DNA from: Powellomyces hirtus | Lineage: Eukaryota; Chytridiomycota; Chytridiomycetes; Spizellomycetales; Powellomycetaceae | NCBI GenBank assembly: GCA_025526995.1 | Contig: JAHLKG010000007.1 | Coordinates: 434,001 to 498,000, forward strand | DNA length: 64,000 bases | Reading direction: 5' to 3' | Shown here: positions 1,726 through 35,160 of the stretch, piece by piece | Numbering within the stretch: position 1 is the first letter of the stretch | How the letters are laid out: each line of letters opens with the position of its first letter | The notes under the pieces: model-generated | Database searches by the model: none | Told to the model about the DNA's origin: nothing | Seen by the model: only the letters and a program-made list of their open reading frames with translations | Made by a program: the position numbers and the translations under genes

Positions 1726-4700
1726 ATGGCCCACAACGGCAAGCCGAACAATCACATCACAATGCAGGTTGCCCAACCGGGCAGTAGTAGCAACCCAAAC
1801 TACATGTCCACTCCACACACTGCTGGGCAGTCGGAGCCGGACAGCACCTCGTCCAATATGCCACTATCGAGAGACTCTCGAAACCTGCCTCACCGCGCGT
1901 CCAACACCAGCACGGAAATCGGGCACGACGAGACCAACCAGTCGTTCCCGCCTCTTTCCGCGGGCGGCAAACCGGCGGCCAAAAGCAGGCTCAGGCGGGG
2001 AAGCACCCCGCATCTTGAAACCGAGGACGACCTTGAGAATCTCCTCAAGGCGCTCGCTGAAGAGGCGGGACAGAATGCTACTACCTCCCCTGATGACTCT
2101 GCCGCGGACATCCACGATAGCAAGTCCGCTGGTCCGCATGCTGTTATCAATGTTCCTGAGGAATACCTCAATACGGACGAGAACACGGGACTGACGACCG
2201 AGGAAGCCGAGAAGAGGAAACGCAAGTTTGGGCCCAATCAGCTGGCGGAACACAAAGAGAACCTGGTTTTGAAGTTTTTGGGGTACTTTGCGGGACCCAT
2301 CCAATATGTGATGTTTGTAAGTGTAGATCAACGTGAACAGATGTGTTGCGCGTAGAAGGACGCGTCTTGTATAGCCAATGCTCATCTTTTCTTCATCATT
2401 GCAATCCAGGCCGCCGCAGTCCTGGCCGGAGGTCTCGAGCACTTTGTCGACCTCGGTGTCATCCTGGGACTACTCATGCTCAACGCCTGCGTTGGTTTCC
2501 TACAAGAGTACCAAGCCGGAAACATTGTAGCTCAGCTCAAACAACAACTCGCCCTCAAAGCCACGGTCGTTCGCAACGGTCAGGTCACTGAAATCGATGG
2601 GAAAGATGTTGTACCGGGTGATATTGTCAAATTGGAAGAGGTAAGCGCGGCAATGAGAATTAGTTGATCACAGAGGAGTAGTAGATCACTATAGCAGCAA
2701 ATGCGTCGCTAATGTCAGGTGTGGGTGTTATGTAGGGAACAATCATCCCAGCCGATGGCAAAATTCTAGGCGAGAAATCGTTCCTGCAAGTCGACCAGTC
2801 CTCGCTGACCGGAGAATCGCTGGCCATCGAAAAGAAGGCCGACGACGAAGTTTACTCTTCATCCGCCGTCAAACGGGGTCAATGCCTGATGGTCGTCACT
2901 GCCACGGGGGACAACACCTACGTTGGCCGCACCGCCAGTCTCGCGTCCGGCACGGCCGCCCGCGGTAAATTTACCGAGGTCCTTAACTCTATCGGCAGCG
3001 CCCTGCTCGTCCTCGTCATCTTCTGGGTCCTCGCGATCTGGATCTCGGGCTTCTACCGTGGTACTTCGATCGCGGATCTTCTCACCAATGCTCTGATCAT
3101 CACGGTCATTGGCGTGCCCGTCGGTCTTCCCGCCGTTGTCACCACGACCCTCGCTGTTGGTGCCGCGTACCTCGCAAGAAGGGAAGCCATTGTCCAACGT
3201 TTGTCTGCCATCGAGTCGCTTGCTGGCTGCGAAATCCTCTGTTCAGACAAGACCGGCACGTTGACTAAAAACAAACTGGTGCTGCACGAACCGTACTGTT
3301 TGAACGGTGTTGACCCTGCCACCATCATTCTTGTCTGTGCGCTCGCCTCGTCACGATCAAAGAAAGGAATGGACGCGATCGACAAATCCATTATGCTCGC
3401 CCTTCTCTCCCACGACAGTGCGCGGGAACAAATGCGTCACTACACCACTTTGGAGTTCCAGCCGTTCGACCCGGTCACCAAGCGTATCGTCGCGGTCGTG
3501 CAGGACGATGACGGGAATCAGATCACCGTCTGCAAGGGAGCGCCGCCTGCGGTTCTGAAGCTCGTAGAGCAAGACCATCCCATTGATCGAGCGGTTCTTA
3601 AGGCGTACAACGAAAAGGTTGCGGAATTCGCATCGCGTGGGTTCCGTTCCCTTGGAGCTGCGTGGAAAAAAGGCGACGATCATTGGGAGATTTTGGGTAT
3701 CCTCTGCCTGTTTGACCCGCCGCGTGATGATACTGCCAGCACGGTCGTGGAGGCCCAAGAACTGGGTCTGAAGGTCAAGATGCTCACTGGAGATGCAGTC
3801 GGAATTGCAAAAGGTACCTGAATGACACGCCAACGTCGCTTTTCTCACGCATTTCTGACGCGTGCTTTCCTCTCAGAAACCGCACGTCAACTCAGACTCG
3901 GCACCAACGTCTACAACACCAAATTGCTGGTCGATGGCTCCATGCCCGGGTCCGAGCTGAACGACTTTGTCGTCGCTGCCGACGGTTTCGCTGAAGTATT
4001 CCCTGAGCACAAGTACATGGTCGTCGACATTCTGCAAAAGCGAGGTTTCCTTGTCGCCATGACCGGTGATGGTGTGAATGATGCGCCCAGTCTGAAGAAG
4101 GCCGACGCTGGCATCGCTGTGGAAGGCGCGTCGGATGCTGCACGCACGGCTGCCGACATTGTGTTCCTGTCTCCTGGACTGGGAACTATCATTGACGCGA
4201 TCAAGACTTCTCGCCAGATTTTCCATCGCATGGTGAGTTACTAGTTAACTTGTGATTACAGTCTCATCTGGATTGATTTGTTCTGATTACTGCAATCCCA
4301 GTTGTCCTATGTCATCTACCGTATTGCTCTTTCCCTGCATCTGGAAGTCTTCCTGACAACCTCATTGATCATCTTGGACCAAACCATCAATCCCGAACTC
4401 GTCGTCTTCCTCGCCATCTTTGCCGATATTGCCACACTCGCCATCGCGTATGACCGTGCACCGTTCTCCCACACACCTGTCAAGTGGGACTTGCCTCGAA
4501 TCTGGGGACTGGCTATCGTCTCTGGTCTCCTCTTGTCGGCGGGGACTTGGATCCTGTACGGAACCCTGATCCAGACTGGCAACAGCGGCGTCGTCAACCG
4601 CGGTGGCCACGGCGGTTACCAAGAGATCCTTTTCCTCGAAATTACACTGACGGAAAACTGGCTCATTTTCATCACACGCTCTTCGCATTCCCTATGGGAC

Positions 4701-5228
4701 ACCTGGCCATCATGGCAACTCGTCGCCGCCGTCTTCACTGTCGATGTACTTGCTACGGTCTTTGCCATCTTTGGCTGGTTCAGCGGGGAACGAACCGACG
4801 TCGTCACCGTAGTCCGCATCTGGATCTATTCCCTGGGCGTCACCACCATCATCGCCATCCTCTACTACACCCTGGCCAACTCGTCCATCTTCTCCAACCT
4901 CGTCCGCGGTCGCATCCAGCGGCGCCAGAAACACCTCGAGGATTTCATGTACGACCTCCAACGCGTATCCAAGATGCATGAGAAGGATGTTGTCTATCAA
5001 CCTAGCAAGAGACGACGCTCCAGCCGCGCCTCACGCGTCCGCAAACCCATGGCGTGGAAGGAAGAGAGCACCAATGAGCGGGATGAAGACAGTGACTTCC
5101 TCGCCCCACGCGCCTACCACACCCGCAAACTCAGCGTTGATCCTGACGCGCCTGACGATTCGGATGCTGACGAGTCGGGCGAGGCGTGGAGGAGGTCCAG
5201 AAATGCGATGTTTGAGAAAAGCAAGTGA
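1726..5228 (+). CDS. PMA1: plasma-membrane H+-ATPase (P3A type)
   Basis: Exons 1726-2316, 2410-2640, 2736-3813, 3877-4232 and 4302-5228 join in phase to 1060 codons. The product resembles yeast Pma1 throughout: TGES at about residues 299-302, the phosphorylation motif CSDKTGT with the catalytic Asp at about 445, and TGDGVNDAP at about 696. Membrane segments lie on both sides. Such pumps export protons using ATP and build the gradient for nutrient uptake. Two parts differ from the ~918-residue yeast enzyme. The N-terminal tail is longer and rich in Ser, Asn and acidic residues. About 80 residues rich in Arg, Ser and Asp follow the C-terminal LEDF...RVS regulatory segment. A repeat array and a TATA-like box precede the gene. 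Confidence 0.96.
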
Positions 5229-5264
5229 ATTGGTTGATGTTTTTGAAGAGTACATATACCCGTA

Positions 5265-5282
5265 CCCCCCCCCCCCCCCCCC
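5265..5282. repeat. C18 homopolymer
   Basis: A run of 18 C lies 37 bp after the H+-ATPase stop codon, probably in its 3' UTR. Its length is likely variable and prone to sequencing error. Confidence 0.8.
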
Positions 5283-5381
5283 AATCATGGCAGTATCACG
5301 TTGTTACATGCATATTTGTTTCTTGTAAAACAGCTTTTTTGGAGCACCCCTTTTTTTGTTTGGTTTTCTGACTCCAGAGTA

Positions 5382-5506
5382 GCAATCCGAAGGAATATGA
5401 CGGCGAGTCCGATTTTGCAGTGTAGTAAATTGCAGCCGCACCACACGGCTTAGATGATTACTAGGCGGCAAATCGGACTCGACGTCATATTCTTTCGGGC
5501 TGTTGC
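5382..5506. repeat. 125-bp palindromic element, MITE-like or hairpin
   Basis: The left arm (5382-5418) and right arm (5468-5506) are imperfect reverse complements, about 37 bp each, around a 49-bp spacer. The shared core reads CGAGTCCGATTT in the left arm. No coding capacity is present. It could be a miniature inverted-repeat transposon or a structural hairpin 3' of the H+-ATPase gene. Confidence 0.7.
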
Positions 5507-6670
5507 AACATGATGATGAATCTCAGACCTTTTCGTCACCAAGCGGGAATTACTGGCTCCAATTTCTCAGGGATCTCTTCACGATTCCGAATCGGCCAGA
5601 AATCCAAAACCTGGGTGACATCTTCACATCATCTCTGCAGCCGACAACGCAAAATGAACGAGTCCTCGCGGTGTTGGATTTGGGTTATGAGCTTAGGGTG
5701 TGAATTCTGAACGAGTTTGAACGGTCAGCCATCCTTGATTCCCAGGATATGGCCACGTGACTTGATGTCACAATTCACATCACCCCGGCACCGCAATGCG
5801 AATCGCGCACGGGCAATATTCGGCGAGAGATATGTGAAGCCAATCAGTGGGCAGTTTTGGTTTCATGAGTGATTCCCACGGCATTCTCCCATCCATTGGC
5901 AATGTGGACACCAGATGCCCCGTTACCCCGGTCCTCGGTACCAGATACATGTCGTGAACTGCCCGTCTCTCAACAGACGACAATGTGCTGCCCTTGTGGG
6001 TGCAAAGGAGGCAGTGATAATGCACGAGTTTATCGATAGTGATAGATAGATACCGAAAGAGATGAGATGGCATGATAATCGTGCATTGTTTACGAATGAC
6101 CGAGTTGGGTTAAAGTTCGTCGTTTTGAGAGGCCGTTTCGGGAACAAACGGAATAACAAATCATTCGTTCCCTATTGGTATCATAGCCGCCGGGACATTT
6201 GCCATATTGATCTTAGGTGCACAACAGTTTGGCATGGAGAGAGAGAATTGCCAGTTGCACACTGAACACAACTGGCTTATTTGCACACATTCATTCATCA
6301 GTCTCGCACACACATGCTCTGACCATTCACATCCGTCTGTCCCTCCCTCCCGCTCGGGGGACATCAAAAACTAAGGGACATATCCCAGTGTTCCACGTAT
6401 CTTGTTTTTTAAACAGCACATCCTCGGTGGGGAGTCCGTTTGAGGACAAACATAACAAAGCATTTTGCAAATCACAACTGCTCTATCTGGGACAACATCA
6501 CACACTTGCTGTACTGAACACTGCCCGGAGCCAACTGGCCTTTTTTGGTTACTTTATCTGCCACTAGGCCATTTCGCAGTATCTTCCCAAGAAAACTTCC
6601 CCAGTTCCCTGGTTCCCCGCCCTCCGAGCAAACAAGGCTGACGCCAACACCTGCACACGCGCGCGCGGAC
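5507..6670. other. intergenic, promoter region of the next gene
   Basis: No supported gene. Short frames here match no family and lack splice support. The last 300 bp before 6671 presumably hold the promoter of the Gln-rich factor; no clear core element was recognised. Confidence 0.5.
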
Positions 6671-9557
6671 ATGGCCGACGTCTCACCAAACGACACTGCC
6701 GGTGCAGACAGTTCGAACAATGAAGAGCTGGACAAAACACATAATATAACAGAAGCGAGTCCCATCGCCGTTGTGAACGACGAAAAGAAGACAAACGATA
6801 AAGAGGCTGAGGACATAGGAAACGAGGAGTACGCATTGGAAAAGGTTGTAAGCAACCCTGAACGAAATGTCGACGAGAAGATGGAGGGTGGCGTGAGGAG
6901 AGAGTCAAACTCACCGGAAGCAGAGGGCCCCTCTCTGGACACGAAGCCGGCAGGCAGGATCGACGCTGACCACCCGAGTGGAGATGAGAAAGCGCGCGTG
7001 GACGAGAAGTTGACCGACTCCCCACTCTTGGCGAGACCACCGTCGAGAGGCCATCACCACCGCCACCACCCGCACCACCGCCGACATTCCGGCAGCAGCC
7101 CGAGAAACGGACGCGGGGGCTCGCCAATATCTTCAGAATCGTACGTGCTTACTATCGTTTGCATTCTTGCATCACGGGAGAAAATCGAGTGTTAACGTTT
7201 TGGACCGTTCCCACAGTTCTACATCATCCTGCAGCACATGCGACAGCGACTCGGATTCGCGATCCTCGCATTCTAGTCGGTTCCATCGCTCTACGTCTTC
7301 GGCGTCGTCGTCATCATTGGGCACCCATCGCAGCAGATCTCCCAGAAAACATTACAGAAAGCGATCGCGCGCATCAGTAGGACGGAGCAGGTCTCTCACC
7401 CCGGCTGGGCCTTTTGGAAGCAAGGCTAGCGCACACATGCTGTCCATGTCCGCCCCGGCGACTCCGGCAGTTGCAACGCCAGATCAGAACGACGCGAGTC
7501 GCAAAGGGCTGGCGCAAAACCTACGGACAACGCACTCTGTGTTGATACAGTTTGGACTTGTCAATGCTGACGGACAGCCATTTCCGATTTCTTCTGAGAA
7601 TCTGGCAAAGTACATCGACATTCAATCGGAGCGCATGCGGGGAGGTGCGATTCAGTTCTCATCGCTTAATTGGTATTTGCATTCCATGCGGAAACTGCAC
7701 AATGAAAACGGCTGGGAGTGGGATGCGGTTCGAAAAGCACCGATTGTTGCGAGTGCTTGGAATGCGGCCAAAGCGCTGACGGCTGAGGCGGCGATCGTGA
7801 GAGCCAATAAGAGGGCGACAAAGGCAAGCCAGGTTCTGGAACAGTTGGGGGCGACAGATCAGCAAAAGGCCGCGGTCGCAGTTCAATTCAGACCAATCTT
7901 GCCGAAAGCAAAAGCAGCAGCGGCAGCTGCTGCCGCTGCTGCCGCCGCCAAATCTCGAGGGGGTGAGGCATTCAATGATGAAGAGTCCATGATGGACGTT
8001 GACTATCGACACGGGGAAGAAGGACATGGCGAGGCTGGATCACATAGTCAACAACGTCCTTCGATCGATTTTTCGGGACGAAATCCATCAATGAGAGTTA
8101 CGGACCGGTCTGCAGAGTTGGGATTGCCGTCGTCGCGGAAGCGCACACACAGTCATCACTCCAACGGCAGTGGTCTTGCACCTGGCGACGAGCATCATCA
8201 TCACCAAGAAGCTGTGTTTCACGCCGATCCTCGATATCACCGCCACGACCCAAGCTATGGACAACCGTATCCGGTTGACGCAGCAGGGAACCCTCTTGTG
8301 CCACGGGGCCGTGACCCGCATCCACATCCTGGCTATGGACAAGCCATGGCGGTAGGTCCAGATGGACGGCTGACTCCTCTGGGCACGCATATGTCCCGTC
8401 AGGACATGATGGATGTGGGCGGTGGTTCTATAGCGGGTTCGCCAGCTCCTGGAGAGGACCCCCGACATCTTCACCCGTATGCGGCATCCAACAAGAAACA
8501 GCGACTTGATCACCATCACCAGCTTGCGCAACAACACGAATACTCCTCGCGCCACCACCCCTCAGAACACCCGCAGCAGCAGCTTCTGGAACAGCAGTCA
8601 AAGCGCGGTGCGGTCCGTGAACTTCGGCCTGCCGCGGGCGTGCCGACCCCGAACCTCAGCGACGCTGATCTTGAAGACATTATCACCGAAGCAAAAAGCG
8701 AGCTCGACAAATGGGCTAGGGATCAGTACCTCATTCGACGACAGCGCACACATCAGCATCAGCGTCAACAATCACAGCAGTTACAACAATCGCAACAACA
8801 ACAGCAACAACAACAGCAACAGCATCTGCATCATCATCAACTTCAGCAACAACCGCATGGCAATCATCATACCCCTCCGCAGCTACTTGTCAACCACCAG
8901 CATCCGCAACACGCGCAACAACCGCAACACCAGCAGCAGCAATCGCATATGATGCAACTCGGCCCAGGCGGCGCACCGTTTCATCATTCGCACTCTGCGG
9001 GTTCGTCGCACATTCCGCAATTCCGACCACAAAGTGCTGGTTCTGCGCAGCCGCAGGGGCGCCCGGGCACCGCCACACCGGTCGCCAGCGGGAGCAACAA
9101 TGGGCAATCACAAATTCAGCAACAGAGCTCAACGACAGGGTCGAAAAACTACTGGCACTACTACCGCCCTCAGCAGAAAGCTGCAGATACCCCACAACAA
9201 CAACATCAGCAGCAGCAGCAGGAACATGCAGGGACCGGAGCAGGCGCTAACGCCCAAACGCCGGAACAAGCAGTGTTCCACACGCAATACTCTGGCCACA
9301 ACTCTGCACCCCAACCCGTCCGCATTGCTCCCCGCCCAGCCATAGATGCATCGAACACACCAACCATGGTTGCCGCGGCACCCACCAGCAAACAAAAAGC
9401 CGCCGCGAATCGCCGAGCAGCAGCGTCGGCCAGGAAATTCGCCGCGGCATCATCTGCGTTTCCAACGTCTCCGCCCCTCCCATCAGCGAAAAAGAAACGA
9501 GTGCGAAAATCGATGCCGACCACGTTCATGGTCGGGGAATCACAGCCGCCTTCTTAG
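6671..9557 (+). CDS. Gln/His-rich nuclear protein with integrase-like helical domain
   Basis: Exons 6671-7140 and 7217-9557 join in phase (936 aa). ATG 6671 is the first canonical start in frame. The order is: an acidic Ser/Glu-rich N-terminus; a His/Ser/Arg-rich stretch; a compact helical domain at about residues 253-343; poly-Ala; then long Gln and His tracts, and a basic C-terminus (KKKRVRKS) that could be a nuclear localisation signal. The helical domain (SSLNWYLHSMRKLH and neighbours) resembles the SAM-like core-binding domain of tyrosine recombinases. No catalytic recombinase domain follows. The composition is typical of transcriptional regulators. The function is unknown and the recombinase resemblance is by eye only. 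Confidence 0.8.
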
Positions 9558-12740: not shown

Positions 12741-15184
12741 ATGACTGTCCCAACGCCATCCAAGGCACCTGTTGACCAGCCGTGGAAATGGCCGACAGGC
12801 AGCCGGAAGCGGCGACGCAACAGCGAAGTCGCAGATGGGTCAGCCAGCGACAGTGAGGTGCTGTTTCCCGCGTCCAAGAAGCACAACAAGTTGACTGCCG
12901 AAGAGGATAATGAAGAGGACGTTGGGACTGCGGAAGCTGGAAAGACGGGGGGAGGCCCTGATGAGCTCGAAACTGCAACCAGCGGCAACGAGGTGCCCGA
13001 CATGCTGACCGCCAAAGAGGATGCCGAAAAGGCAGCGGGGACCGCAGACGCTGGCACGACGGGGGCGAACACTAATGGGGCGGGTGTTAAGGCGCAAACT
13101 TCCGAGGCGGAAAGCATGGAACTCCATCAGATGAGGAGACGCAAACGTGAAATGGAGGCGTCTGACGACGAGGAGGAGCTCATTCCCATGTTCACAAAGT
13201 ACAGCAAGCTTACCACGGAGACGGACGACTTTTCGGCTACACAGTAAGTGTTTCAGCAATATGCATCCGATATCACACAACTTTTCTAACAACTGCGAAC
13301 AGAAACCGGGCATTGAAGTGTTTCCTGTCGCCGCAATGCACTCGTCTACCTGCTTTCACGTCCGTACTAGGTTATGAAGAACATTACGCTCAGGCCCACG
13401 TCAATGTTTGTAAAGTGTGCAAGCGTCCAAAAATCTTGCCCACTCGGAGACTTTTGGATCTGCATCTCATGGAGGTGTGTATGTTTACTCCTTTGACTGT
13501 CTCGCTATCCGAGGCCTTTCTAATCCGTTTCTGGTAGGTTCATGATTCGTTTTTCGCCGTATCAGCTGAGCGGCAGGCTATGGTGAGAAGCAAAAGTCAA
13601 TGTCGTAGCAACTCGCAAAGGGCTCGCCTTTAACCTCTGTTCCTTTGTCTTTTCTTTCCTTAGTACGAATGCTTTGTCGACGAATGCCCAATCAAGCACT
13701 CCACAATCAGACAGCGCCGAAGGCACTTGATGCGGGTGCACGGATTCCCGGCAAACTTTCATTTTCAAGTCGTTGAGCAGGGGCAGCAGCGTGATAATTA
13801 CAATTATAAGCCGAGCACGGAGGAAGGTCAGCAAAACAAGCAGCAGAATCAGGAGAATAAGAAAACCAAGCAGAAGAAGCTACAGAATAAGCTTGGGGAG
13901 AAGAAGGCAAGCGTTGGCGTCAGTGCACCAGCTGATGAGAATGAGAAAGGAAAGACCACCCACGCGGAACCTGATGGAGTCTGGAAGGCGGTAGAGGAAG
14001 AGGATGATGCAAATTTGAGGAAGAAGGGAACGAGGGGAAATGGGGGAACGAAGGGACAGATGGGATCGAGCGCCGAGGAGAACCCTCTTGTAACCAACGA
14101 GGCTTCGGACCCAATGGAAAAAATCTCTGAACAGCCGTCAGACTCAGTTCTAATAGCTAATGGTTCGGTAGCTGTACCGCAGAACTCGAGTTTGTCGTCT
14201 GGTGATGCCAAGCCAAAAAAAAAGGTGCACAAAAGGGGACCAAAGGCTAAGAAGCAGCCTCTTGTAGCCAGCGAGGTCTCGAACGCGATGGAAGTGACCA
14301 TGGCAGAGACGCCACAATCAGCGTCCCAGGCCGCCGTCTCGGTTGCTGACCCGCAGGATGCGAGTTTGTCGTCCGGTGATGCTGACTCAAAGAGGGGACC
14401 TAAGGTTAAGAAGAAGCTTCCTGTAGCCAGCGACGCGATGGAAGTGACCATCGCAGAAACTCCACATTCAACGTCCCAGGCCGCCGTCTCGGTAGCTGTA
14501 CCACAGAACTCGAGTGTGTCGTTTGGTGATGCCAAGCCAAAAAAGGTGCGCAAAAGGGGACCAAAGGCTAAGAAGCAGCCTCTTGTAGCCAGCGAGGTCT
14601 CGAACGCGATGGAAGTGACCATGGCAGAGATGCCACAATCAGCGTCCCAGGCCGCCGTCTCGGTTGCTGACCCGCAGGATGCGAGTTTGTCGTCTGGTGA
14701 TGCTAACTCAAAGAGGGGACCTAAGGTTAAGAAGAAGCCTCCTGTAGCCAGCGACGCGATGGAAGTGACCATCGCAGAAACTCCACAATCAATGTCTCAG
14801 GCCGCCGTCTCGGTTGCTAAACCGCAGGACGCGAGTCTGTCGTCTGGTGATGCTAAGCCGAAGAGGGGACGTAAGGCTAAGAAGAAGCCCGTTGTTTGCA
14901 GCGAGGTGCCGGGCGCGATGGAGGTGACCAATGCAGAGACGCCACCATCAACATCCCAGGACTCGAGTTCGTCACATGTCAACCAAAGACCGCCGCAACC
15001 GTTGCCGGCAACTTCGATAACTGTGGACAGCCTTACGAAATCTTTTGCACGCATGCAGATCCCACGACAGATAATCTTTGGACGCCGAAACGGACCCCCT
15101 GTCTTTGGAAAACGCCCGACTCCCCGAAAAGCAAAGTCGTCGACAGCTCATGTTGGTCAAATCACCGAACCAGACAGCGACTAA
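12741..15184 (+). CDS. ZNF511-type zinc finger protein with five AT-hook-like repeats
   Basis: Exons 12741-13243, 13303-13474, 13538-13582 and 13664-15184 join in phase to 746 aa. After an acidic, basic-patched N-terminus comes a conserved block. It has a C2H2 finger (CFLSPQC...HYAQAH), CKVCKRP, then LLDLHLMEVHDSFF and YECFVDEC...RRRHLMRVHGFP. This order matches the ZNF511 family of nuclear zinc finger proteins of poorly known function. The 45-bp third exon supplies the conserved VHDSFF segment, which supports the gene model. The C-terminal half has five tandem repeats of 50-58 residues. Each carries a basic KRGPKAKK-like core resembling an AT hook, plus SSGDA and AMEVT motifs. It converges on the TLC gene, 251 bp away. 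Confidence 0.88.
14173..14970 (+). repeat. five coding tandem repeats in the ZNF511-like gene
   Basis: Five copies of a ~150-175-bp unit alternate between a longer form with KRGPKAKKQPLVASEV and a shorter form with KRGPKVKKK and SDAMEVT. Adjacent long-short pairs are close to identical, so the array probably grew by duplication of a two-unit block of about 325 bp. Confidence 0.85.
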
Positions 15185-21690: not shown

Positions 21691-24524
21691 TCAGGCGTCA
21701 AAGTTGAGCACCCGCTTTCGGTTCAAGATGGAGGGTTTCATCAATGCGACGAACTCCTTGGGCAGGTAGTTGCGTGCGGCGTCGAGCACCTTTGGGATTA
21801 GCTTCGAGGGTATATAATAGCTGGCTTCATCAGGAGAGAGTGATGTCAGCCCGCGAAACTGTCGTGCAACCTTCCATACTGCGCTTGCAATGTTTATTTC
21901 CTCTCCCGTTTGCCACTGAAATAGGGTGAATCGCGGAACTTTAGTTGAAGACTTTGCATTTCGAGGAAAACACCGGGAAGTTACCTGACATGCGGCTTCC
22001 GCAGTCAAACATTTGGCAAAGAGCCACAACATGTCCTGCAACTTCGCGTCGCCTTGCCGAACTGCTTTGGCTAGCATGGTCCTGCAGAAAGGGATATCCC
22101 GGTCTTGCGAGAAACCGTACAAAGCGGTTTGGAAGCACGACTTCGGTGTCGTGTGCGAGATGAATGTGGTGATCATCTTATCAATCTTCGCTTTGACAGC
22201 CTTCTCACCCTCGACCTTGAAAGAATGGAGGTTTGTGAGAAAGCGTCGTCGCGAAGCGATAATGAACTGCATGCACTTACACCCTGGCAGTCTCTCAGAC
22301 AATCGATGAGCGGCATCCCGGGCTCAGCTTCCCCGAGAAAAGGGTGATTACTCACCACTCCCGGGTGGTTTTTCAGCGTGCTCCCTAGGTCGTTCATGGC
22401 AAGGCCATGATGCCTTTCGAGGAAGTGGTGCCAGACGTGGAACCACCGCGCAACAATCTCCTGGTTGGACTATCGACGAAGAACATCAGATTTGGTACAA
22501 AGGGCCATCCAGCGCGCATGAAGCTCACCTGTTGCTTCCTGTCCAAACACCTCTCTCTCACCCTTGCCAGGATGTTCTTCAACCAAGGTTTGTTACACCT
22601 TTGGTCGAAGAGGCCCCCTTCAATTCGTTGGACGTCCACGTCCAAGTCATCGATCCAGCCGAAAATTTCGTCCGGCACCCTCGCCATTCCTCGAGAGAGA
22701 GGAGGGGGCGACCGCTGAAGAGGCGGCGCGCTCTCTCGAGGCTTCAGAGGTGAAGCTCTGAAGGGGGCGGGGTGCTCTACAACGACATGGGGCGTCGTTG
22801 GCTCAAATTTGAAGAAGTGTATTCTTCTCTTTGCGTCCCAGGACCGGGTTTCTCCCCGCGGGAATGTCGGGCCCCGTCCCGACGGCGACGGCATCCGTAC
22901 GACCGTTATACGCGAGGGCGAGGGCGACGGCGTCCGCACGACAGGAGCTTCGCTGATGCGCGAGGGCGAGGGCGACGGCGTCCGCACGGCAGGAGCTTCG
23001 CTGATACGCGAGGGCGAGGGCGACGGCGTCCGCACGACAGGAGCTTCGCTGATACGCGAGGGCGAGGGCGACGGGGTCCGCACGACAGGAGCTTCGCTGA
23101 TACGCGAGGGCGATGGCGAGTTAACGGCAAGTACATCCATCGAAATCTCGACGATGGGGACATCCTTGTCGAGGGCCACTTGAGGAGGCGAGATTGGTTG
23201 CTCGTAGCATGTCGCCGACAAAATCCGCGGTCGGGCCGGAACTCGTGCTGGTCCTACGGCAGCGCGTGGGGGGACCGCTGTTCGTCGCGGCACGCGCTGA
23301 GGACCCGGCACTCGTTCGACCGCGCTCTTGTTGGCACGAATTGGCGCACGACTTGAGCCGTATGTGGAGGAGACCGTTGATGTACGGCTTGCCTCTGCCG
23401 CGGGAGGAACGGATGGTCCCCGATTTGGACCGATGGTGGAGGAGACTGACGAAGCGCGGCTGGTGGAGGAGACTGCCGAAGCGCGGCTCGTCGCTGCCGC
23501 AGAAAGAGCCGTTGGTGCACGGCTTGGCCCGGCCGAAGGCGCCGATCGGCGCAGAGCTTGGCCTACAGGAGAGTCCGGTGCCCAGCGGCAGTCGATGGAC
23601 TTCCGTGGAGAAGAAAACTTCCAAGCGCCAAAGAGCTTCAGAGCCTTGTCGTTTAGATTGAGTTGCAATCTAAAGATCTCCAGTTAGTAGATGCACACAA
23701 GAGAGCAAGCAGAGCGGCAAACCCACCTCTTCGCCTCCGTCGTCCTGTATGCAGCTTTCGCAACGTTTCTAATTTCGGCCGATTGATCGGCAGCGCTTGC
23801 ATTGACAATCCTCGATATTGCATCGTTGTGCTTGATGGAAAATTCTCGAGGGCCTTTCAGGAACGCATCGACCACCAGGATAGCCGCCAAGCGGAACGAC
23901 AACGATTTCTCCTTGTGGGCTTCAACCAGCTCTTCAACGAAGGAGGGTACGGGCCCGTGATTTACGAGGAAGATCAGAGCATCCGTGGCTCTGGTAACAT
24001 AGACCTTGTTCGCCTTCTTCGTGAGCTGCAATATGGCCTTCATGAATTCTACGGCGAGGGGCTCGAACGTCAGTGCGATGCGAAGAACGACTTGGAAGAC
24101 GACGCCAATGGCAGTGAGTGCCAGCTTTGTCCTTTCAGAACCGAGCTGTGATCGGAACGAGGCCAATAATGTGAGTTGCTATATCAGCCAAGGCAGAACA
24201 CCAAGGTAAAGAGTGACATACCGCTGCGAGCAGAGGCTGTCGGTAGTACTGCTTCACAATTGGTCCCAAGACCAATGACTTGTTGCAGGCTAAAATTATA
24301 CTAGCCAAGTTTTTCAGGGCTTCGTCGTGCCCTTTCCAAGTTTCTTCCGTCTCTCTCTTCTCAAAAGCCTTAGTGTGCTTTAGCACTTCCCTCTGAAGGA
24401 CGACCTCGTCCGAGATCTGACATTTGAAATAAAAGGTCAGCAGCAAAGATCAACATCAACGCTGATTCTGATCGGATCAATGAGCTTCTTAAAGACATAC
24501 CTCGGACGGAACGTTGGACCTCAT
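21691..24524 (-). CDS. CLASP/Stu1-type microtubule-associated protein
   Basis: Minus-strand exons 24524-24501, 24416-24222, 24178-23727, 23669-22529, 22469-22281, 22215-21985 and 21915-21691 join in phase to 818 aa. Residues about 15-225 form a TOG/CLASP_N HEAT domain: FEKRETEETWKGHDEALKNL opens it and SAEIRNVAKAAYR closes it. The middle (about 230-530) is Ser/Pro/Arg-rich and includes a 16-residue tandem repeat. The C-terminal part is helical again, as in CLASP C-terminal HEAT domains. CLASPs bind microtubule plus ends, promote rescue and act at spindles. The last intron (69 bp) is in frame and stop-free. The 43-bp second intron is short. The start is the least certain part; an in-frame stretch extends upstream. 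Confidence 0.85.
22908..23120 (-). repeat. 48-bp coding minisatellite in CLASP linker
   Basis: Four to five copies of a 48-bp unit encode ISEAPVVRTPSPSPSR on the minus strand. The last residues vary. The Ser-Pro pairs are potential proline-directed kinase sites. An Arg-rich frame on the opposite strand is a by-product of the repeat. Confidence 0.85.
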
Positions 24525-26327: not shown

Positions 26328-26600
26328 TCAGGCCTGGTTTTTTCTTATTTGAGATCACTTTTGAACGAGAAATCAATTAGTAAAAGTCACGTTTCTGTCA
26401 TGTGCTTTTTGAGATGGTAATGGGCCAACAGCCTGTTACACACAACTCTGGACCGCGTCTCAAAACACGTTCTCAAACACAATTTCAAAAAAGGCCGTTT
26501 TTGCAGTTATAATCAAAAAGGTGGAACTCAAATATTAACAGTTTTTGCACCCCTTTTGAAACTCCTTTTGACATACGGCCATCTCAAACACGATTTCAAA

Positions 26601-27832
26601 ATGAGTTTTTACTGTTTTGATGCCGTACCTCTTCCGGTGATGTACGCGAGTATACGTCAGCTCCAACAGGAAGAAGCCCGTCACCTGCGTCGCCCTCGTC
26701 GATCCCCAAACAGAACGTGGAGCATATGGAACCTCGTCTCTGATTGTACAGACAGGGAGTTTCTGGGCAGGTTCAGAGTGTCCAAGCCTCTGTTCCATTG
26801 GCTGGTCAATAAGCTGCGCGTTAACCTTTGGAAAGACACTGTTAAAGGGGGTGTTCCTGTGAAAAAGCGACTCGCTATTGCCCTCTACAGATGGGGATCC
26901 GGGATTCCACTGCGCGTTGTTGCAGATTCCTTTGGAGTTACGAAATCCACTGCATTTCACTGCTGCAAAGACGTTGCAGAGGCCATCGAGGAGGTTCTGT
27001 ATTCTCGAACAGTGGGGTACCCTGCTTTGCATGACCTAGAAGGTTGGAAGTGCATCTTGGACGGCTTTGCATCCAAACGAGGCATCGAAAACGTCATTGG
27101 TGCCATTGACGGGACGCACTTTCGCATTCTGAAGCCTGCAGGTGATGAGATTCACAATGCATACACCAACAGAAAGGGTTATCAATCTATTGGATGTCAA
27201 GCTGTCGTGGATGCTGAAGGGATCTTCCGTCACGTAGGTGTTATTAACAACATCGACGACTTTCCGATGCCATTGATGATGATTTTAACTTTAAGTTTCA
27301 TCTGTATCCGATGTAGGCCGTCATCGGTTGGCCTGGCAGCGTTCCTGATTGTCGCATTTGGCGCAACTCAAGCATTGCAATCAACGCTCGAAATGACAAA
27401 ATATGGCCAGGAGGTCATTTCCTGATCGGAGATTCCGGTTATCAACTCAGTTGGTACATGATGGTCCCTTTTCCAACTCGGGTCAGGCAGCCGCCGTATG
27501 AGACTTCATTCAATTTCATTCTCTCTTCCACCCGGATTATTGTGGAACAGGCGTTCGGGCGTCTTAAGGGATGTTGGCGAGTGTTACTGCATCAACAGCA
27601 GGAGAGTCCCAAACAAGCTGCAAAAGTAGCACTCGCTTGTATGGTACTGCATAACCTTTGTAGTGCTCGAGCAGACAGTGCTTTCATGGAAGAGTGGGCA
27701 GTGCCAACAACCACCAACGACAACGCAACGTCAGAAGCCAATGCAGAATTGCTGGACGATGAGGAAGATGAGGGAATGAAGGGGCTGCGCATGCGGATTG
27801 CACAGGAACTGTACTCTAGCCCTGTTTATTAA
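26601..27832 (+). CDS. PIF/Harbinger DDE transposase (HARBI1-like)
   Basis: Exons 26601-27233 and 27317-27832 join in phase to 382 aa. An N-terminal helix-turn-helix-like region (RLAIALYRWGSG...SFGVTKSTAFHC) precedes the catalytic DDE_4 domain. The three acidic residues are visible in VIGAIDGTHF, LIGDSGY and RIIVEQAFGRLKG. NRKGYQSI and IGWPGSVPD are further family motifs; the second becomes contiguous only after removing the 83-bp intron, which confirms the splice. Catalysis would cut and paste the element at 3-bp targets. Nothing is broken, so the enzyme may be functional. It should need the Myb/SANT-like partner at 30924-31990 for DNA binding and nuclear entry. Confidence 0.93.
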
Positions 27833-27867
27833 ATACATTACTGCGCTGGCCGTAATCTGCATTATTG

Positions 27868-27966
27868 AAGATGTTGACGAGATTTCAAAGTCGTCGATGT
27901 TGGCAAGATTTCGAAGTCGTCAATATCGGAGATGTTGGCGAGATTTCAAAGTCGTTGATATTGTCA
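27868..27966. repeat. degenerate minisatellite, Harbinger spacer 1
   Basis: Three imperfect copies of GATGTTGGCGAGATTTCAAA plus GTCGTC, between the transposase and the oxygenase. The motif is related to the 36-bp repeat at 29423-29594. Confidence 0.65.
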
Positions 27967-28236
27967 ATGGCCGTGAATTTCTCGTAGATACGTTATTGTG
28001 TATGTTTGCACATCTCAGATACACACGTGAAGCGCGTGGGTTAGATATTTGTGCAGGCGCGCGCTTGTACCGAACGAGTTTGCCATCTTTCTTGTCATCC
28101 GGCATACCATCTCGCTTGCATTTTCGCGGCAATCAGTGTGGCAGGCAGTAACCCGAGGTGATAGACAGTGTCCCAGAGCTTGAAGGTTATCGCACATATC
28201 GGCATCTCGAAACTAATGCTGGTCTCGCAGAACAGG

Positions 28237-29406
28237 ATGGCCCATGGCAAGCGCAAGCGACAAAGATGCAAGAGCAACCTAGGCATCCCCCCAACGTACG
28301 CCCAGGAACTGTCTGATGGACTTGCCTCTGATGAATGGCGCAGAATGGACGCCTTGGTGAACGGGGTTCCACTCGAGTGCAGTATGGGGGAAAAGCCGTG
28401 GAGCATACGGTCCCCCACGCACGAGAATTCTGCGCTGATTGTCTCTGACAAGCCATTCCCGGTGTTCTACAACTGCGTTATACGCCGTTTGGAGGACACA
28501 CTGGCACGAACGGCGTGGGATCAGCACTTGACCGTTTCACTGGATGATCTGGCGCAGCAACAGAATAAACGACAAGCACGGTCATCAACGATATCGCCAG
28601 TCTCGGGGAAGCCTTTATCACCTGAAGAGGAGTTCGTGGAGAGCATACAAGAAGCCGAGAACTATCTTGAGATCCCAAGGACCCTGTTTATCGCCACCGA
28701 CTGCAAGAAGAGCCGTTTGTGCTGTTACATACCTGGCGCACTCCCCGAAATCCTCCGCGATCATCTGACAATTGAGTTACGACGTTTCTTGCGGAATTAC
28801 CCCCCTGGCAGCTTGCCAACGGTAAAACCTGATAACCGTCATGTCACGTTTCATGACCAGCCCAAACTGCACGGCATTTATCACCTCGGCGTTTGGCAGG
28901 CGCAAGCGTCGAAGGTCCCCACGGTGTCGCGCGAGTCCCGTAGCAGCAACCTACAACTCAATGCCACGCAAGATTGGATCCAGTCCACTCCCGTGCGCAT
29001 GATGTGCTTACTCGTCATGAAATGCTTTGCCGCGCTGGATCCCGAGATGGCAGCGGCTTACAGAAAGGCATGGGCACGAATGCCACGGTTGGGCATCGGG
29101 TTTTGGGGCCCAAACACTTGCAACCAGAGTTTGCAATGATGGTTCTCGTCATAAACGAGTACGTGAAGAAACACCGTGACTTGCGCGACTCCCGTTACGG
29201 TTGGTGTGCCGTTGTATGTCTCGGTGACTTTCGTGAAGGAGAATTCTGCCTCGCTGACTTGCAACTCAAGTTCCCTTTCCAACGCGGCGACATTATCTTC
29301 ATCCGTTCATTCGCGCTGGAGCACTTTGTACGGAAGTGGAAAGGCATTGAACGCTTCACGATTGTCTTCAAGATGCACCAGTTGATTTTGACTGGCATTC
29401 CGACAT
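28237..29406 (+). pseudogene. TET/JBP-like 2OG-Fe(II) dioxygenase with one apparent frameshift
   Basis: Two overlapping frames cover one protein: 28237 to about 29115, then the next frame to 29406. The C-terminal part holds the double-stranded beta-helix core of fungal 2-oxoglutarate oxygenases. An HRD gives the HxD iron ligands (His at 29172, Asp at 29178). RYGWCAVV, LGDFREGEFCL and KFPFQRGDIIF follow. The distal His is in ALEHFV (29322), and ERFTIVF offers the 2OG-binding Arg. This pattern is known in fungal TET/JBP-type proteins that are often linked to transposons. The break lies in TTTTGGGGCCCAAAC (about 29102-29116) and is a single-base shift, so it could be a real mutation or a read error. 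The basic start MAHGKRKRQR may follow an upstream exon. The N-terminal ~290 residues match no domain I recognise. Confidence 0.75.
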
Positions 29407-29422
29407 AGAGGACCGTTATCAC

Positions 29423-29594
29423 AGACGTTGGCGGCTTCTCGAAATTGTCGATGATGGCAGACGTTGGCGGCTTCTCGAAATCGTCGATGATGGCAGACGT
29501 TGGCGGCTTCTCGAAATCGTCGATGATGGCAGACGTTGGCGGCTTCTCGAAATCGTCGATGATCGCAGACGTTGGCGGCTTCTCGAAATCGTCG
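29423..29594. repeat. 36-bp minisatellite, Harbinger spacer 2
   Basis: About 4.8 near-identical tandem copies of a 36-bp unit that begins AGACGTTGGCGGCTTCTCGA and ends in TCGTCGATGATGGC. There are no spacers between copies, so this is not a CRISPR. It lies 16 bp after the oxygenase stop codon. Confidence 0.9.
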
Positions 29595-29699
29595 TCTTAC
29601 GCACATCAGCTAACAGACGGACATATGTGGTGAAACGGAATATATTGAAAGACCTTATACTAATACTAATACACTAATACAGAGACATAACCAATGCAC

Positions 29700-30611
29700 T
29701 TAAAAGGGATCCATAAACCATTGATGCGGAAGGTGACGAGAGGGTCCCCACCGTGAAGGTGCTACGGCACGGTTATTCCCGAAGGCTACGCATATATCAG
29801 TGTTGTTCATGTCTGCCATGAACACAAAGGCGCCGTCGAGCTGGATAATGGTAAGGCTCTCTAGCAGACGAGAGATGGCGCCAACAGCACGAAGGCGGTG
29901 ATATCCTAAGGGATCAGTGACTACTGGCAAATTGCAGTCAAGCATTAGTTGCTGCAGGCGGCTGTGGGCATCGTAGAGGGCTCTGATGGTGGTCTTTGCT
30001 GATTCCAAGATTGCAACCGCTTGTTGCCTATTCTGGTTATCCCATTCGTGGAAATTCCACGTCTTGCTCCTGGGGCCCGACCCATTAAGAACCCAACGGA
30101 CCGTTTTCAGAGTGACACCGTCTGCGGGATCCGTTTCAACAATTCCTCCAAGAGGAGCGGGTTTGATATGTGCACCCACATCTGTGGCTTTTCTGTAAAA
30201 CCCTATGCGCTCTGCCCTGGCGGAGGGGACCACATCTAGAGAAGCAAAGATGGTTTGAAGCGACTGGCCAATCTGGGGTGGTAGTGGGATATGGGGGATG
30301 GTGTTGGCTCCACCCACGCTGAAACCCGGCCTCGGCGAGACAGCCTTCGTAAGCCATCCTTGCGCTCGGGAACCGGGGGGCGCGGCAATGGTATGAGATC
30401 TTGAGTATAGAAGCTTCAGAGCATCCGGGGGGGGCAGGAGCATCCGATCAGGGCGACAAAGCCATTCCACAAGGATCTTGCCCAAAACAGCTCCCCATGT
30501 GTTACAATCGGAAATTGACCAATCGTACATCCCGGTGTCATAAGCCACTCCCGGTATGCCTGCAGGATCCACATGGCAGAGTGCATGGTCGAGAGCTTCC
30601 CTCTGGGGCAT
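29700..30611 (-). CDS. unknown protein, cargo ORF of Harbinger element
   Basis: An uninterrupted 303-codon frame on the minus strand. The first ATG is at 30611; the frame itself opens further up at 30710. The protein is balanced in composition, with no signal peptide or membrane segment. Visible segments include GMYDWSISDCNTWG, a Pro-rich loop, LKTVRWVLNGSG, a Gln/Ala-rich helix (NRQQAVAILESAKTTIRAL) and NNTDICVAFGNN. I recognise no family. Its place between the oxygenase and the Myb-like gene suggests it moves with the element. Its length and lack of stops argue for real coding, but this has not been tested. The related minisatellite motif lies just upstream of its start. Confidence 0.6.
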   Translation of the reverse strand: MPQREALDHALCHVDPAGIPGVAYDTGMYDWSISDCNTWGAVLGKILVEWLCRPDRMLLPPPDALKLLYSRSHTIAAPPGSRAQGWLTKAVSPRPGFSVGGANTIPHIPLPPQIGQSLQTIFASLDVVPSARAERIGFYRKATDVGAHIKPAPLGGIVETDPADGVTLKTVRWVLNGSGPRSKTWNFHEWDNQNRQQAVAILESAKTTIRALYDAHSRLQQLMLDCNLPVVTDPLGYHRLRAVGAISRLLESLTIIQLDGAFVFMADMNNTDICVAFGNNRAVAPSRWGPSRHLPHQWFMDPF

Positions 30612-30687
30612 TTTCCGTGGAGCGCGCGAGTAAAGAAAGATTGGAGAGGTAGGGAGACGTTTGACGTTGGGGAAGGTCCGATAGGTT

Positions 30688-30780
30688 GGAAACGTTGCAG
30701 ATTTTGGCAAGTCGTCGATGTCGTCGATGATTGCAAACGTTGAAGGCTACGGCAAGTTGTCGATGTGGTCGGTGGCCTAA
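30688..30780. repeat. degenerate minisatellite, Harbinger spacer 3
   Basis: Two to three imperfect copies of GCAAACGTTGAAGGCTACGG followed by CAAGTTGTCGATG, related to the 36-bp unit at 29423-29594 and in the same orientation. Confidence 0.55.
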
Positions 30781-30923
30781 ATTGTTAAAGAATTTGACAG
30801 GTTTTCAACAGCTGTGATGAATTTATACATGCGAGCTATTGCACGCATTGCCACCGTGCCATTGACAGGGATTCCTTATACCAGTATTCCAATGGCGTAG
30901 ATTCATTTACATAACATATTTAT

Positions 30924-31990
30924 TTATTTATTTTTGTTTAGTACCTCTGCAACAGCCGCCAACATAGTTGCACCCATGTGTGCCATCAATTCACCCATTG
31001 CTTGCCTCATCTCAACCTGGCGTTTGGCTTCCCTTTCCTCCCGTTGCAATTCCAACTGTGCCATGAATTCTCTATTCTCTTGGTTGAGTTCCTTGCTCAT
31101 CTGGGTGATCTCCGCCAAAGGTGATGTCGTCTTCTTCCGGCGTAGGGAAGATCGCGGCGGTGTTTCTTGGGTGGTGTCGTCATCATCTTGGGAGCTGGCA
31201 TATCGTTTCCGAGATCTTTCGGGAGTACTATCTCGCTCAACGCCATTATCATAGACGTAGTCGGGCTCAATGGAGGCGTTTCCCGTGTTCGCTCCCTCCA
31301 TTTTGTCCCACCAGCAGTATCTCTCACGATAAAACTGCAACCCGCGCCCTCCAGTAGCCTTCAGCGCATCTTTGGCTTTCCGATATTCGGTCATAATGTT
31401 GTTATACTTCGCCTTGCACTATAGCACAATACGTTAAAGATCGACGGCTTTGAGACCTCGTCGACATCGTTGACATTGTGGGCGTTTCCTACCTGGTCAT
31501 AAGTCCACTTTGCCGTCAAGCCTGTTTCCGACAGATGCCGCTGCATATATGCCTCTTTCTCTTTCGAGAGGAAGATCCCGTTGAAGTCGGATGCTCGCAC
31601 TTTGCCTTCGACCCAAATCTTGTACTTATTGTTCAAGTCGACCAAGGCAATCATCTCCTCGTCATTCCAGCACCGGCGCTTACTTTCCTCACTTTTGACC
31701 TTCCGGCTTTGTGGGACCTTTGCAGCCTTGACGTCTACCACTGCTTGCGGTGCAGATGTGACCTCTATCACCTCAGGGGCTCCGGAAACAGCTGCTTGCC
31801 ATGTAGGGAGGTCATCTTGTACAGATATAGGAAGGTTGTCATCCACAGTAATAGTGGCCATAGGCGACCGGATGTGTTGAACGAGCTGCTGGTGATGCCG
31901 CTGCACGATGTCAGGGTGTTTGCTGGCCAACTTTGCGAGTATGTCTGCCCTTTCAGTGGTGAGAGCTCCATAGGGTTGATTCACGTTCAT
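30924..31990 (-). CDS. Myb/SANT-like DNA-binding protein of the Harbinger element
   Basis: Minus-strand exons 31990-31493 and 31418-30924 join in phase to 330 aa. The central part has a Myb/SANT-like trihelix pattern: CWNDEEMIALVDLNNKYK, then LTAKWTYDQCKAKYNNI across the intron, then YRKAKDALKATGGRG and CWWDKM. A Ser/Arg-rich linker and a long charged coiled coil (RREEREAKRQVEMRQAMGEL-like) follow. In PIF/Harbinger elements the second protein binds subterminal DNA and carries the transposase into the nucleus. The 74-bp intron contains another trace of the spacer motif. No defect is visible. Confidence 0.87.
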
Positions 31991-32372
31991 GCTGAACGTG
32001 CTGACGTTGTTTTCGGGGTTGGATGGATATTGGATGGACAGTGGTTGGATGGAGCAAGAGACGCCATCTCGTTTTCAAACTCGCGAGACCTCCTGAGGTA
32101 CTTTGAGATTGCCACATTATTTTCGACATCCACATGACCATCCAGTGACAGTCATCTGACAATCAGCTGAAAAGTCACGTTTCTCAGGATGTTAGAGATT
32201 TTGGTTCCAGTTGGTTCCATCTGGTTGCCATTTATCACCTGCAAAGTCAAAGTACCTCCAACCCCAAAACGCGCTTTCAAAAGTTGCCACCTCGAGTCAT
32301 ACAGCTTATGTAAAGCGCGTCTCGATGGCAATCTCAAAAGTCAAGTGGAAAAAGTGCAAAAACCACGCCTCA

Positions 32373-33015: not shown

Positions 33016-34167
33016 ATGCCCAAAGGAGCTATCCACCATCGCCGCAACTGCATTGACAATGACTTGCGCCAGCGAATCATCAAGTCAGTCATGGACCTTG
33101 GCAATACACCTGCGCAGACTGCCAAAAACTTCAGCTTGCCACGCGGAACCGTCTACGGCATTCTCCAGCGCTTTGAGGAAGACGGCACCATGGAAAAGAA
33201 GCGCTCAGAGCTTGCGCGCCCACCATTGAAGATGACTAAAGAGATGGATGTCTGGGCTCGCCAGCAATTGGATGGCCATCCAGAGCTCACACTCACGGAG
33301 CTGGCTGACATGGTCAACAGTGAATTTAACACCAACATTTCCAGCAAAACGGTCTGCAACCACCTCAACAAGGGTGCTAAGAAGGATCGGTACTGTCTCA
33401 AAGTTATGCGCTATGAGCCTGAAGACTTCAACTCTGATGCACGGCTTCGTGCACGCAAGAGTTGGTGTGAAGCCTACCTGATGCATGGTGGAAACATCAT
33501 GGACGACGTGCACATTGATGAGTGTGGCTTCAATCTTCGGTTGGTCAAACGCCTTGGCCGTGCTCGCAATGGCGTCCGTCCTCGCCAAGTCCGTCCTACG
33601 CAGCGTGGCCGCAATGTCACACTGATCATTGCAGTCTCGAGAGCAGATGGCGTTGTCGCTAGCCGGATGCAAATGGGCGGTACTGTCAATGCCGACTTCT
33701 TCCGCAACTTCATGATTGAAGACATACTTCCCGCACTGGAAGGTCGCCATCTCAACATCATCATGGACAACGCACCTGTCCACAACGGCGTAGAGCTAGA
33801 TGAGCTGTGCGAGGAGGCAGGGCACAGACTGTGGCGCTTGTCCAAATACACACCATACCTGAACTGCGCTGAGTGGGTGTTTGGAAGTGTCAAGCCCTAT
33901 GTCAAGAAGCAGGACATCGACAAGGACACGCTGCAGGGACATGTCATGGACGGGGTGGCGAGGCTCACACGAGAAATGATTGGGGGATGGATGCGTGAGG
34001 TGCAGCGCAACTTCACCATTGCACTGCGGGGAGAGCGCCTTAGCCGCATGTTTGACAACCGTAGCTACCGTAGCCTAGCACAGTTTGAAGGGATTGATTT
34101 GGATGATGTGGAGACGGCGACGGACGTGCACAATCACCAGTTGGTATTTGGTATGGGTGCGGTATGA
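33016..34167 (+). CDS. Tc1/mariner transposase (DD34E)
   Basis: A single exon of 383 codons. The N-terminal paired-like helix-turn-helix region includes LGNTPAQTAKNFSLPRGTVY. The catalytic triad is visible in VHIDECGF, IIMDNAPVHN and YLNCAEWVFG. Thirty-four residues separate the second Asp from the Glu, which is the Tc1-type spacing. The enzyme binds the inverted repeats and cuts and pastes the element into TA sites. No stop or frameshift is present. The start at 33016 is the first ATG of the frame and gives a normal N-terminus. Confidence 0.95.
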   Translation: MPKGAIHHRRNCIDNDLRQRIIKSVMDLGNTPAQTAKNFSLPRGTVYGILQRFEEDGTMEKKRSELARPPLKMTKEMDVWARQQLDGHPELTLTELADMVNSEFNTNISSKTVCNHLNKGAKKDRYCLKVMRYEPEDFNSDARLRARKSWCEAYLMHGGNIMDDVHIDECGFNLRLVKRLGRARNGVRPRQVRPTQRGRNVTLIIAVSRADGVVASRMQMGGTVNADFFRNFMIEDILPALEGRHLNIIMDNAPVHNGVELDELCEEAGHRLWRLSKYTPYLNCAEWVFGSVKPYVKKQDIDKDTLQGHVMDGVARLTREMIGGWMREVQRNFTIALRGERLSRMFDNRSYRSLAQFEGIDLDDVETATDVHNHQLVFGMGAV

Positions 34168-35160
34168 GCAGATGTGCGAAAACGTGCAGAAATTGCATTT
34201 CTATTCACCACTCCCTCAAAAATGGTCCGAATAACGAAAGGAAAACAGTTCTAGGCTCGCGCGGGTCTAACGTACGATTTGGTATGTGACGGAAGGCGTA
34301 TCTGTGCATATGTAGAAAGTAGTTTTTCAGCGTGCGCCTACATATATGACGTGTAATTGTATTTCTACTCACCACTCCCTCAAAAATGGTCCAAATAATG
34401 AAAGGAAGACAGCTCTAGACTCGCGCAGGTCTGGTGTACGATGTGGTAACATTGCGAGGCTGGTATCTCTGCAGGCGCCGAAGAGGTATGAGCAGATGTG
34501 CGAAAATGCGTAAACATGCATTTCTACTTGCCACTCTCTCAAAAATGGTCCAAATGACAAAAGGAAGACAGTTCCACGTTCGCCAGAGCGTGATCTCCGA
34601 TGTGGTGATATTGCAAGGGTGCTATCTGTGTGGGGGTGGAAGGGGTATGAGCAGATGTGTGAAAGCGCGCAGAAATCGCATTTCTACTCACCACTCCCTC
34701 AAAAATGGTCCAAATAACGAAAGAAAGACAGTTCTATACTCGCGCGGGTCTGATGTACGATGTGGTAACATTGCGAGGCTGGTATCTGTGCAGGGGTGGA
34801 AGGAGTATAAGCAGATGTGCAAAAAACCGTCGAAAAACGTGAAATCGAATAACTCTGTCAATACCTGTCCAATCAATGAAAGGAAGACAGTTCTGAACTC
34901 GCCAGGGCCCGCTCTACGTTGGGGTAATGCAGCGCTGGGTCTGTGTCGGGTTTGGGAAGCGAAATGCCTGCAGAGATGTCTCTTATGGTCAAAAAACCGT
35001 CGAAAAACGCGAAATCGAATAACTCTGTCAATACCTGTACAATTGACGAAAGGAAGACAGTTCTAGACTCGCAAGGGTCTGTTCTACAATGTGGGAACGG
35101 CGGAGGGTGGTCTAGTGTGTTTAGAAACTGAAATGCACACAGAGATGTTGTCCATATCAT
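34168..35160. repeat. six ~160-bp tandem repeats inside the mariner element
   Basis: A block TCACCACTCCCTCAAAAATG recurs near 34203, 34368, 34525 and 34686. Two further units at 34847 and 35018 carry a diverged version (AATAACTCTGTCAATACCTG). Each unit also has an AAAGGAAGACAGTTCTAGAC-like segment. Period is about 157-171 bp. The array lies between the transposase stop and the right inverted repeat, entirely inside the element. Confidence 0.85.

Follow-up and report, generated by a model that had tools for sequence, protein, structure and literature searches.

A Harbinger DNA transposon of the chytrid Powellomyces hirtus that carries a divergent TET/JBP-type dioxygenase gene

We analyzed a 64,000-nucleotide window of the Powellomyces hirtus genome (positions 434001–498000 of contig C7; the assembly comprises 29.26 Mb in 60 contigs) and found in it a Harbinger DNA transposon of this chytrid with a divergent dioxygenase of TET/JBP type as its regular fourth gene, next to those for a DDE transposase, a Myb/SANT protein and a protein of no known family (open reading frame 3, ORF3). 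As the best explanation of the whole, to which we assign a probability of about 0.6, the oxygenase would oxidize 5-methylcytosine (5mC) in the DNA of the element and thereby relieve its silencing.

The element occupies window positions 26331–32369 (6,039 bp, forward strand). These limits, already proposed in the initial annotation, proved to be exact, as TCA lies on both sides (26328–26330 and 32370–32372) and three more whole copies on contigs C6, C26 and C5 align with it end to end and share its ends. Pairwise identity among the four whole copies was 97.7–99.0%, and all four are bordered at both ends by TCA inside CTCAG, with flanking DNA that differs from copy to copy. The left terminal inverted repeat GGCCTGGTTTTTTC (26331–26344) is read directly and has an imperfect partner at the right end, GGCGTGGTTTTTGC in minus-strand reading (32356–32369), giving the short terminal inverted repeats and 3-bp TNA target site duplication of PIF/Harbinger elements. 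A fifth transposase copy, on contig C1, is complete over 1,568 bp at 98% identity. Its oxygenase begins ~6 kb past the transposase and its ORF3 ~14 kb further on, and a reverse-transcriptase frame (RVT_2) lies inside the first gap, between transposase and oxygenase, so that we read C1 as a single copy split by later insertions. Six short derivatives (L039–L044) retain both ends and little else, and L045 showed a left-end stretch only. One of the six is flanked by TCA/TCA, one by TTA/TTA and four by no matching pair, some of these ends being placed only roughly. About 319 bp of the 3′ end are present twice in tandem in the C5 copy (L017 1473–1791 and from 1792).

The standard PIF/Harbinger pair recognized in the initial annotation was borne out, each protein emerging after removal of one intron. 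Transposase exon 1 (26601–27233, forward strand) is open in four of the five copies (C7, C26, C5 and C1) and contains two stops in C6; it is followed by an 83-nt GT–AG intron (27234–27316) and exon 2 (27317–27832). The spliced product covers positions 1–158 of the 158 of PF13359 (DDE_Tnp_4; E = 1.7e-35, 122.4 bits against a Pfam cut-off of 24.8), the transposase type of PIF/Harbinger elements. The Myb/SANT protein is encoded on the minus strand by exon 1 (31493–31990) and exon 2 (30924–31418), separated by a 74-nt GT–AG intron (31419–31492). Its spliced 330-aa product is the second protein of a PIF/Harbinger element and matches PF13837 with E = 1.2e-5 and 26.0 bits, just under the cut-off of 27.0. 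The same residues are joined in P0011, the public protein model for the C1 copy, which bears the PF13837 label and has the Myb/SANT protein fused to ORF3.

A search of the genome for further copies found the oxygenase together with the transposase on C7, C6, C26, C5 and C1, that is, with all five transposase copies found, as expected if the Harbinger element itself carries the TET/JBP-like gene. At least 12 oxygenase matches were obtained at nine or more places, namely these five copies and contigs C23, C34, C19 and C3. DDE_Tnp_4 matches numbered at least 24, of which 8 represent the five element copies; among the 16 others listed, only C5:74115–74255 was less than 10 kb away from an oxygenase match, and this one lies outside the ends of the C5 element copy. 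That the oxygenase is part of another element that chances to adjoin the Harbinger genes could be suggested by C23 and C34, where the gene adjoins a Fanzor1 gene, accompanied by ORF3 on C23 and by an ORF3 remnant on C34, and where we saw no match to the Harbinger ends. However, in the four whole copies, each at a different target site, the oxygenase stands at the identical place between identical ends, and it accompanies the transposase on C1 too. A chance neighbor is therefore very improbable, and we rejected it for the present element. A KDZ carrier is ruled out because the transposase belongs to DDE_Tnp_4. KDZ transposons with TET/JBP genes were reportedly described in fungi by Iyer et al. 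in 2014.

The oxygenase gene extends over 28237–29408 (forward strand; start according to public models P0002 and P0003). It is split in the window copy into two overlapping open reading frames (28168–29139 and 28974–29408), and it is open over 413 codons in the C6 copy (L013:2964–4205). The HxD motif, distal His and terminal Arg reported in the initial annotation are all present, but in the window copy they sit in the second frame, which contains the catalytic half. H197 and D199 (HxD) and H247 of homologue P0005 are invariant in family alignment A2, and the Arg, which binds 2-oxoglutarate (2OG), aligns with that of NgTET and is kept wherever that end has no frame break or shortened model; P0003 has a His at this position. 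The HxE that passages of Kojima 2025 (PMC12730594) give as a hallmark of PE-type TET/JBP enzymes is absent, the element having HRD. In Pfam, the sole match of the open C6 copy was Tet_JBP, which agrees with the family first proposed, but its score of 18.9 bits is below the cut-off of 34.9, and the profile search of the genome gave no Tet_JBP match above the curated cut-off. We therefore call the protein TET/JBP-like, a divergent relative. The predicted fold of a homologue is TET-like, resembling TETs more closely than it does other 2OG oxygenases, and its best structural match was CcTET. The oxygenase would thus share a predicted fold and the HxD...H...R set with CcTET, NgTET1 and human TET2, at a sequence identity of only 12–20% in the structural alignments. 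Taken together, the profile and fold searches indicate a relationship with TET enzymes. Database homologues include Geranomyces and Cladochytrium proteins, and more distant ones may exist since the protein search detects only relatives sharing short exact words. In PHROGs, P0001 and ORF3 had no matches, and those of P0005 were only weak (best E = 0.011).

We then considered whether there is 5mC for such an enzyme to act on. A DNMT1 replication-focus domain was found at C11:74540–74929 with DNA_methylase matches at C11:76824–78079 (14 DNA_methylase matches in the genome). In the alignment of the five copies, transitions off the majority base numbered 133 at 776 CpG sites, compared with 10 at 898 CpA, 17 at 713 CpC, 9 at 673 CpT and 33 at 3,022 A or T sites; each context was counted over five copies, and C1, covered over ~3.2 kb only, was counted as whole, which lowers all rates alike. 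The odds ratio of CpG versus other C transitions was 11.2 (Fisher p = 3e-48, in a test that ignores shared descent), and no excess of CpA transitions, the site of Neurospora-type repeat-induced point mutation, was seen in this alignment. The CpG observed/expected ratio was 0.98 in the window and likewise in the surroundings of the element, so that there is no general loss of CpG here. The CpG decay of the copies and the DNMT1-type gene of the host make 5mC a plausible target. Two C5-methyltransferase matches elsewhere in the genome (C13:797799–798638 and C50:20464–21303) have identical scores and share a 736-aa open frame, giving the impression of a recent duplication or of mobility.

On these grounds, a DNMT1-type host system would methylate CpGs of the element; the oxygenase made by the element would bind Fe(II) and 2OG and oxidize 5mC on element DNA to 5-hydroxymethylcytosine and beyond; and the oxidized mark would be lost by dilution or repair, leaving the transposase and Myb genes expressible. 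Like its counterparts in other Harbingers, the Myb/SANT protein should bind the DNA of the element jointly with the transposase. In the C6 copy the oxygenase is open and the transposase broken, and in the window copy transposase exon 1 is open and the oxygenase broken, so that the proteins would need to be shared among copies. For the other role offered in the initial annotation, marking of the element's ends, the analysis yielded no evidence either way.

Several observations weigh against 5mC oxidation by this enzyme. Every Tet_JBP match in the family, obtained for 10 sequences or pieces, scored under the cut-off. The fold model represents a homologue rather than the element protein (42% identical over 62% of the query length); its mean predicted local distance difference test (pLDDT) score was 69, and just two of the five models were good. 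The ratios of nonsynonymous to synonymous substitution rates (dN/dS) among the five near-identical oxygenase copies were 0.41, 3.2, 0.97 and 0.64, which is uninformative. Between the Fanzor blocks of C23 and C34, changes were likewise concentrated at CpG (37 of 271 CpG sites versus 25 of 1,623 others), so that the bias marks methylated repeats and not the action of the enzyme. In passages of a review, 5mC is described as near-undetectable in early-diverging fungi (PMC13297926). Finally, the gene is interrupted in four of the five copies (C7, C26, C5 and C1), which, along with the large sequence divergence from described TETs, would also fit a TET-fold enzyme with another DNA reaction (for example thymine hydroxylation or a CMD1-like transfer) or a passenger no longer needed; we regard this as unlikely.

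The abundance of N6-methyladenine (6mA), listed for P. hirtus at over 1% in the relevant part of PMC11258239, counts against 5mC as well and favors an oxygenase acting chiefly on 6mA, as does the ability of CcTET, the best structural match, to oxidize 6mA as well as 5mC (passages of PMC12730594). According to the same passages, Gly331 and Asp337 of CcTET, just after HxD, serve 6mA recognition, Asp337 compensating for the lost cytosine contact of conventional TETs. In P0005, by ungapped count from H197-x-D199, these positions are instead taken by Asp (D202) and Cys (C208). The Asp three residues past HxD is also found in P0001, P0006, P0007, P0008, P0009 and a relic on C3, and a relic on C19 has Glu. 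NgTET1 has Asp and TET2 has Asn at that position, contacting cytosine. The Asp would weakly favor 5mC over 6mA, and the mutation signature of the copies sits at CpG. Moreover, 6mA accompanies expressed genes in early-diverging fungi, as stated in passages of PMC13297926, so that a silenced element would gain little by its removal. A chiefly 6mA-directed enzyme thus appears quite unlikely to us, and we retain 5mC oxidation as the preferred reading.

How the enzyme might be aimed at its own element is suggested by a repeated 17-mer, AAGTCGTCGATGTTGGC. Allowing up to three mismatches, it had 10 matches in the window, all inside the element, compared with an expectation of 0.15; as the motif was chosen from the element itself, this enrichment is not an independent test. 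All 10 fall in the non-coding DNA that makes up 30% of the element: one in the transposase intron (27246–27262, minus strand), two in the spacer between transposase and oxygenase (27888–27965, forward), four in units of a tandem array after the oxygenase (29422–29594, forward; 36-bp unit, 4.8 copies) and three in the spacer upstream of ORF3 (30709–30770, forward). Because the matches form four or five clusters, the chance of this placement is ~0.008 or 0.002 and not the 6e-6 of independent matches, with exon limits in the test off by up to 2 bases. The whole copies have 10 (C7), 8 (C6), 7 (C26) and 13 (C5) matches, and the 9 kb around the oxygenase contain five on C23 and none on C34. Genome-wide at one mismatch, five matches were found, of which two belong to element copies and the other three lie elsewhere; the reversed-motif control gave zero. 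Rfam gave no matches in the window at gathering scores.

This layout resembles that of the Arabidopsis element VANDAL21. Passages of PMC5735166 describe binding of the protein VANC to short intronic and upstream motifs, at which CG methylation is lost and which evolve as tandem repeats that are gained and lost. The chytrid element likewise has a short, apparently element-specific motif, which sits in one intron and in the non-coding spacers, is in part tandemly repeated and varies in number from copy to copy. The likeness is one of layout. VANDAL21 belongs to the MuDR-type plant elements (per passages of PMC12730594), unlike the Harbinger here, and the passages on VANC show no counterpart of the oxygenase. 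By this analogy, the Myb/SANT protein or ORF3 might bind the CpG-bearing AAGTCGTCGATGTTGGC motif and its variants, amplified as the 36-bp array, and so aim the TET-like oxygenase at 5mC of the element itself, a self-addressed anti-silencing that we consider rather doubtful. If this is true, fungi would have an enzyme-based equivalent of the VANDAL/VANC system of plants, and should the repeated motif serve for docking, demethylation addressed by sequence would have evolved independently in fungi and in plants.

ORF3 (29700–30611, minus strand; 303 aa) is present in all five copies and matched no Pfam family at E of 10 or less. Its only database homologues were two proteins of P. hirtus, and its fold model was unusable (mean pLDDT of 33). 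Two PDB matches labeled 'Tet4 Variant' (E = 1.4e-4) were not taken as homology because no stretch passes alone. Between the window and C23 copies, dN/dS was 0.68, close to the values in shifted sense frames (0.75 and 1.05; antisense 0.79–0.98), so that constraint on ORF3 is weakly supported.

The two Fanzor1–oxygenase(–ORF3) loci lie at L015 1–1317 (−), 3478–4521 (+) and 4702–5943 (−), L016 4644–5836 (−) and 7307–8287 (+), and L075 5085–5651 (−). The closest solved protein to the C23 Fanzor is the Fanzor of Spizellomyces punctatus, which two parts of the C23 sequence match with E = 4.6e-35 and 5.5e-20. C23 and C34 have Fanzor, oxygenase and one more block in common, and between the two loci the oxygenase block is inverted relative to the others. 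A block (L016 2921–3784 (−) and L015 6280–7504) with a frame that we take to be dynein-light-chain-like recurs beside both loci. No oxygenase match lies near a Fanzor copy at C1:348367 (89%). The Fanzor–oxygenase block is possibly a second mobile carrier; passages of PMC12730594 describe movement of TET genes between transposons. Diverged, frame-broken relatives of the oxygenase were found on C3 (L020 4000–4955), between the eIF3c and CDC45 genes and ~5 kb from the DNA_methylase match at C3:1368342, and on C19 (L019 4105–4796). Elsewhere in the window, a DDE_3 transposase frame (33016–34167, forward; 383 aa; PF13358, E = 1.4e-19) lies ~650 bp downstream of the element, and tandem repeats occupy 810–1565 (~297-bp unit), 14165–14889 (~321), 22908–23119 (~48) and 34161–35091 (~160–170).

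A Harbinger with a TET/JBP gene is not new in kind, as the TET-bearing Harbingers of rust fungi, PHISTA, were published in December 2025 (PMC12730594, on passages of which the comparisons that follow rest). Like the chytrid element, PHISTA elements unite a DDE transposase of the Harbinger superfamily with a TET/JBP dioxygenase and with a third protein in which no domain is known. However, they occur in Puccinia, a member of a different fungal phylum, duplicate TA rather than TNA (here TCA) and have third proteins without a Myb/SANT domain, whereas the chytrid element has a Myb/SANT protein besides its orphan protein; we therefore rejected membership in PHISTA. Canonical Harbingers and Nuwa, compared by description, share the 3-bp duplications and the two core proteins, transposase and Myb/SANT, but have no oxygenase. 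KDZ transposons also carry a TET/JBP gene with a transposase gene in fungi, but with other transposase superfamilies, and Zisupton duplications are of 8 bp. The survey covers transposon-borne TET-type enzymes in rusts, mushrooms and morels/truffles, and the terms chytrid, Chytridiomycota, Powellomyces, Geranomyces and Spizellomyces do not occur in its main text. In the open-licence papers searched, we found no report of transposon-borne TET genes in the chytrid lineage, and as far as these papers show, the chytrid variant is new. It adds chytrids to the fungi with transposon-borne TET-type enzymes, and the carrier is a TNA-targeting Harbinger with its Myb/SANT protein retained, a combination that points to a further, separate capture. 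With a DNMT1-type host enzyme and methylation-type decay, the idea that TET-type enzymes let transposons escape silencing by 5mC becomes testable in a 29-Mb genome with five copies.

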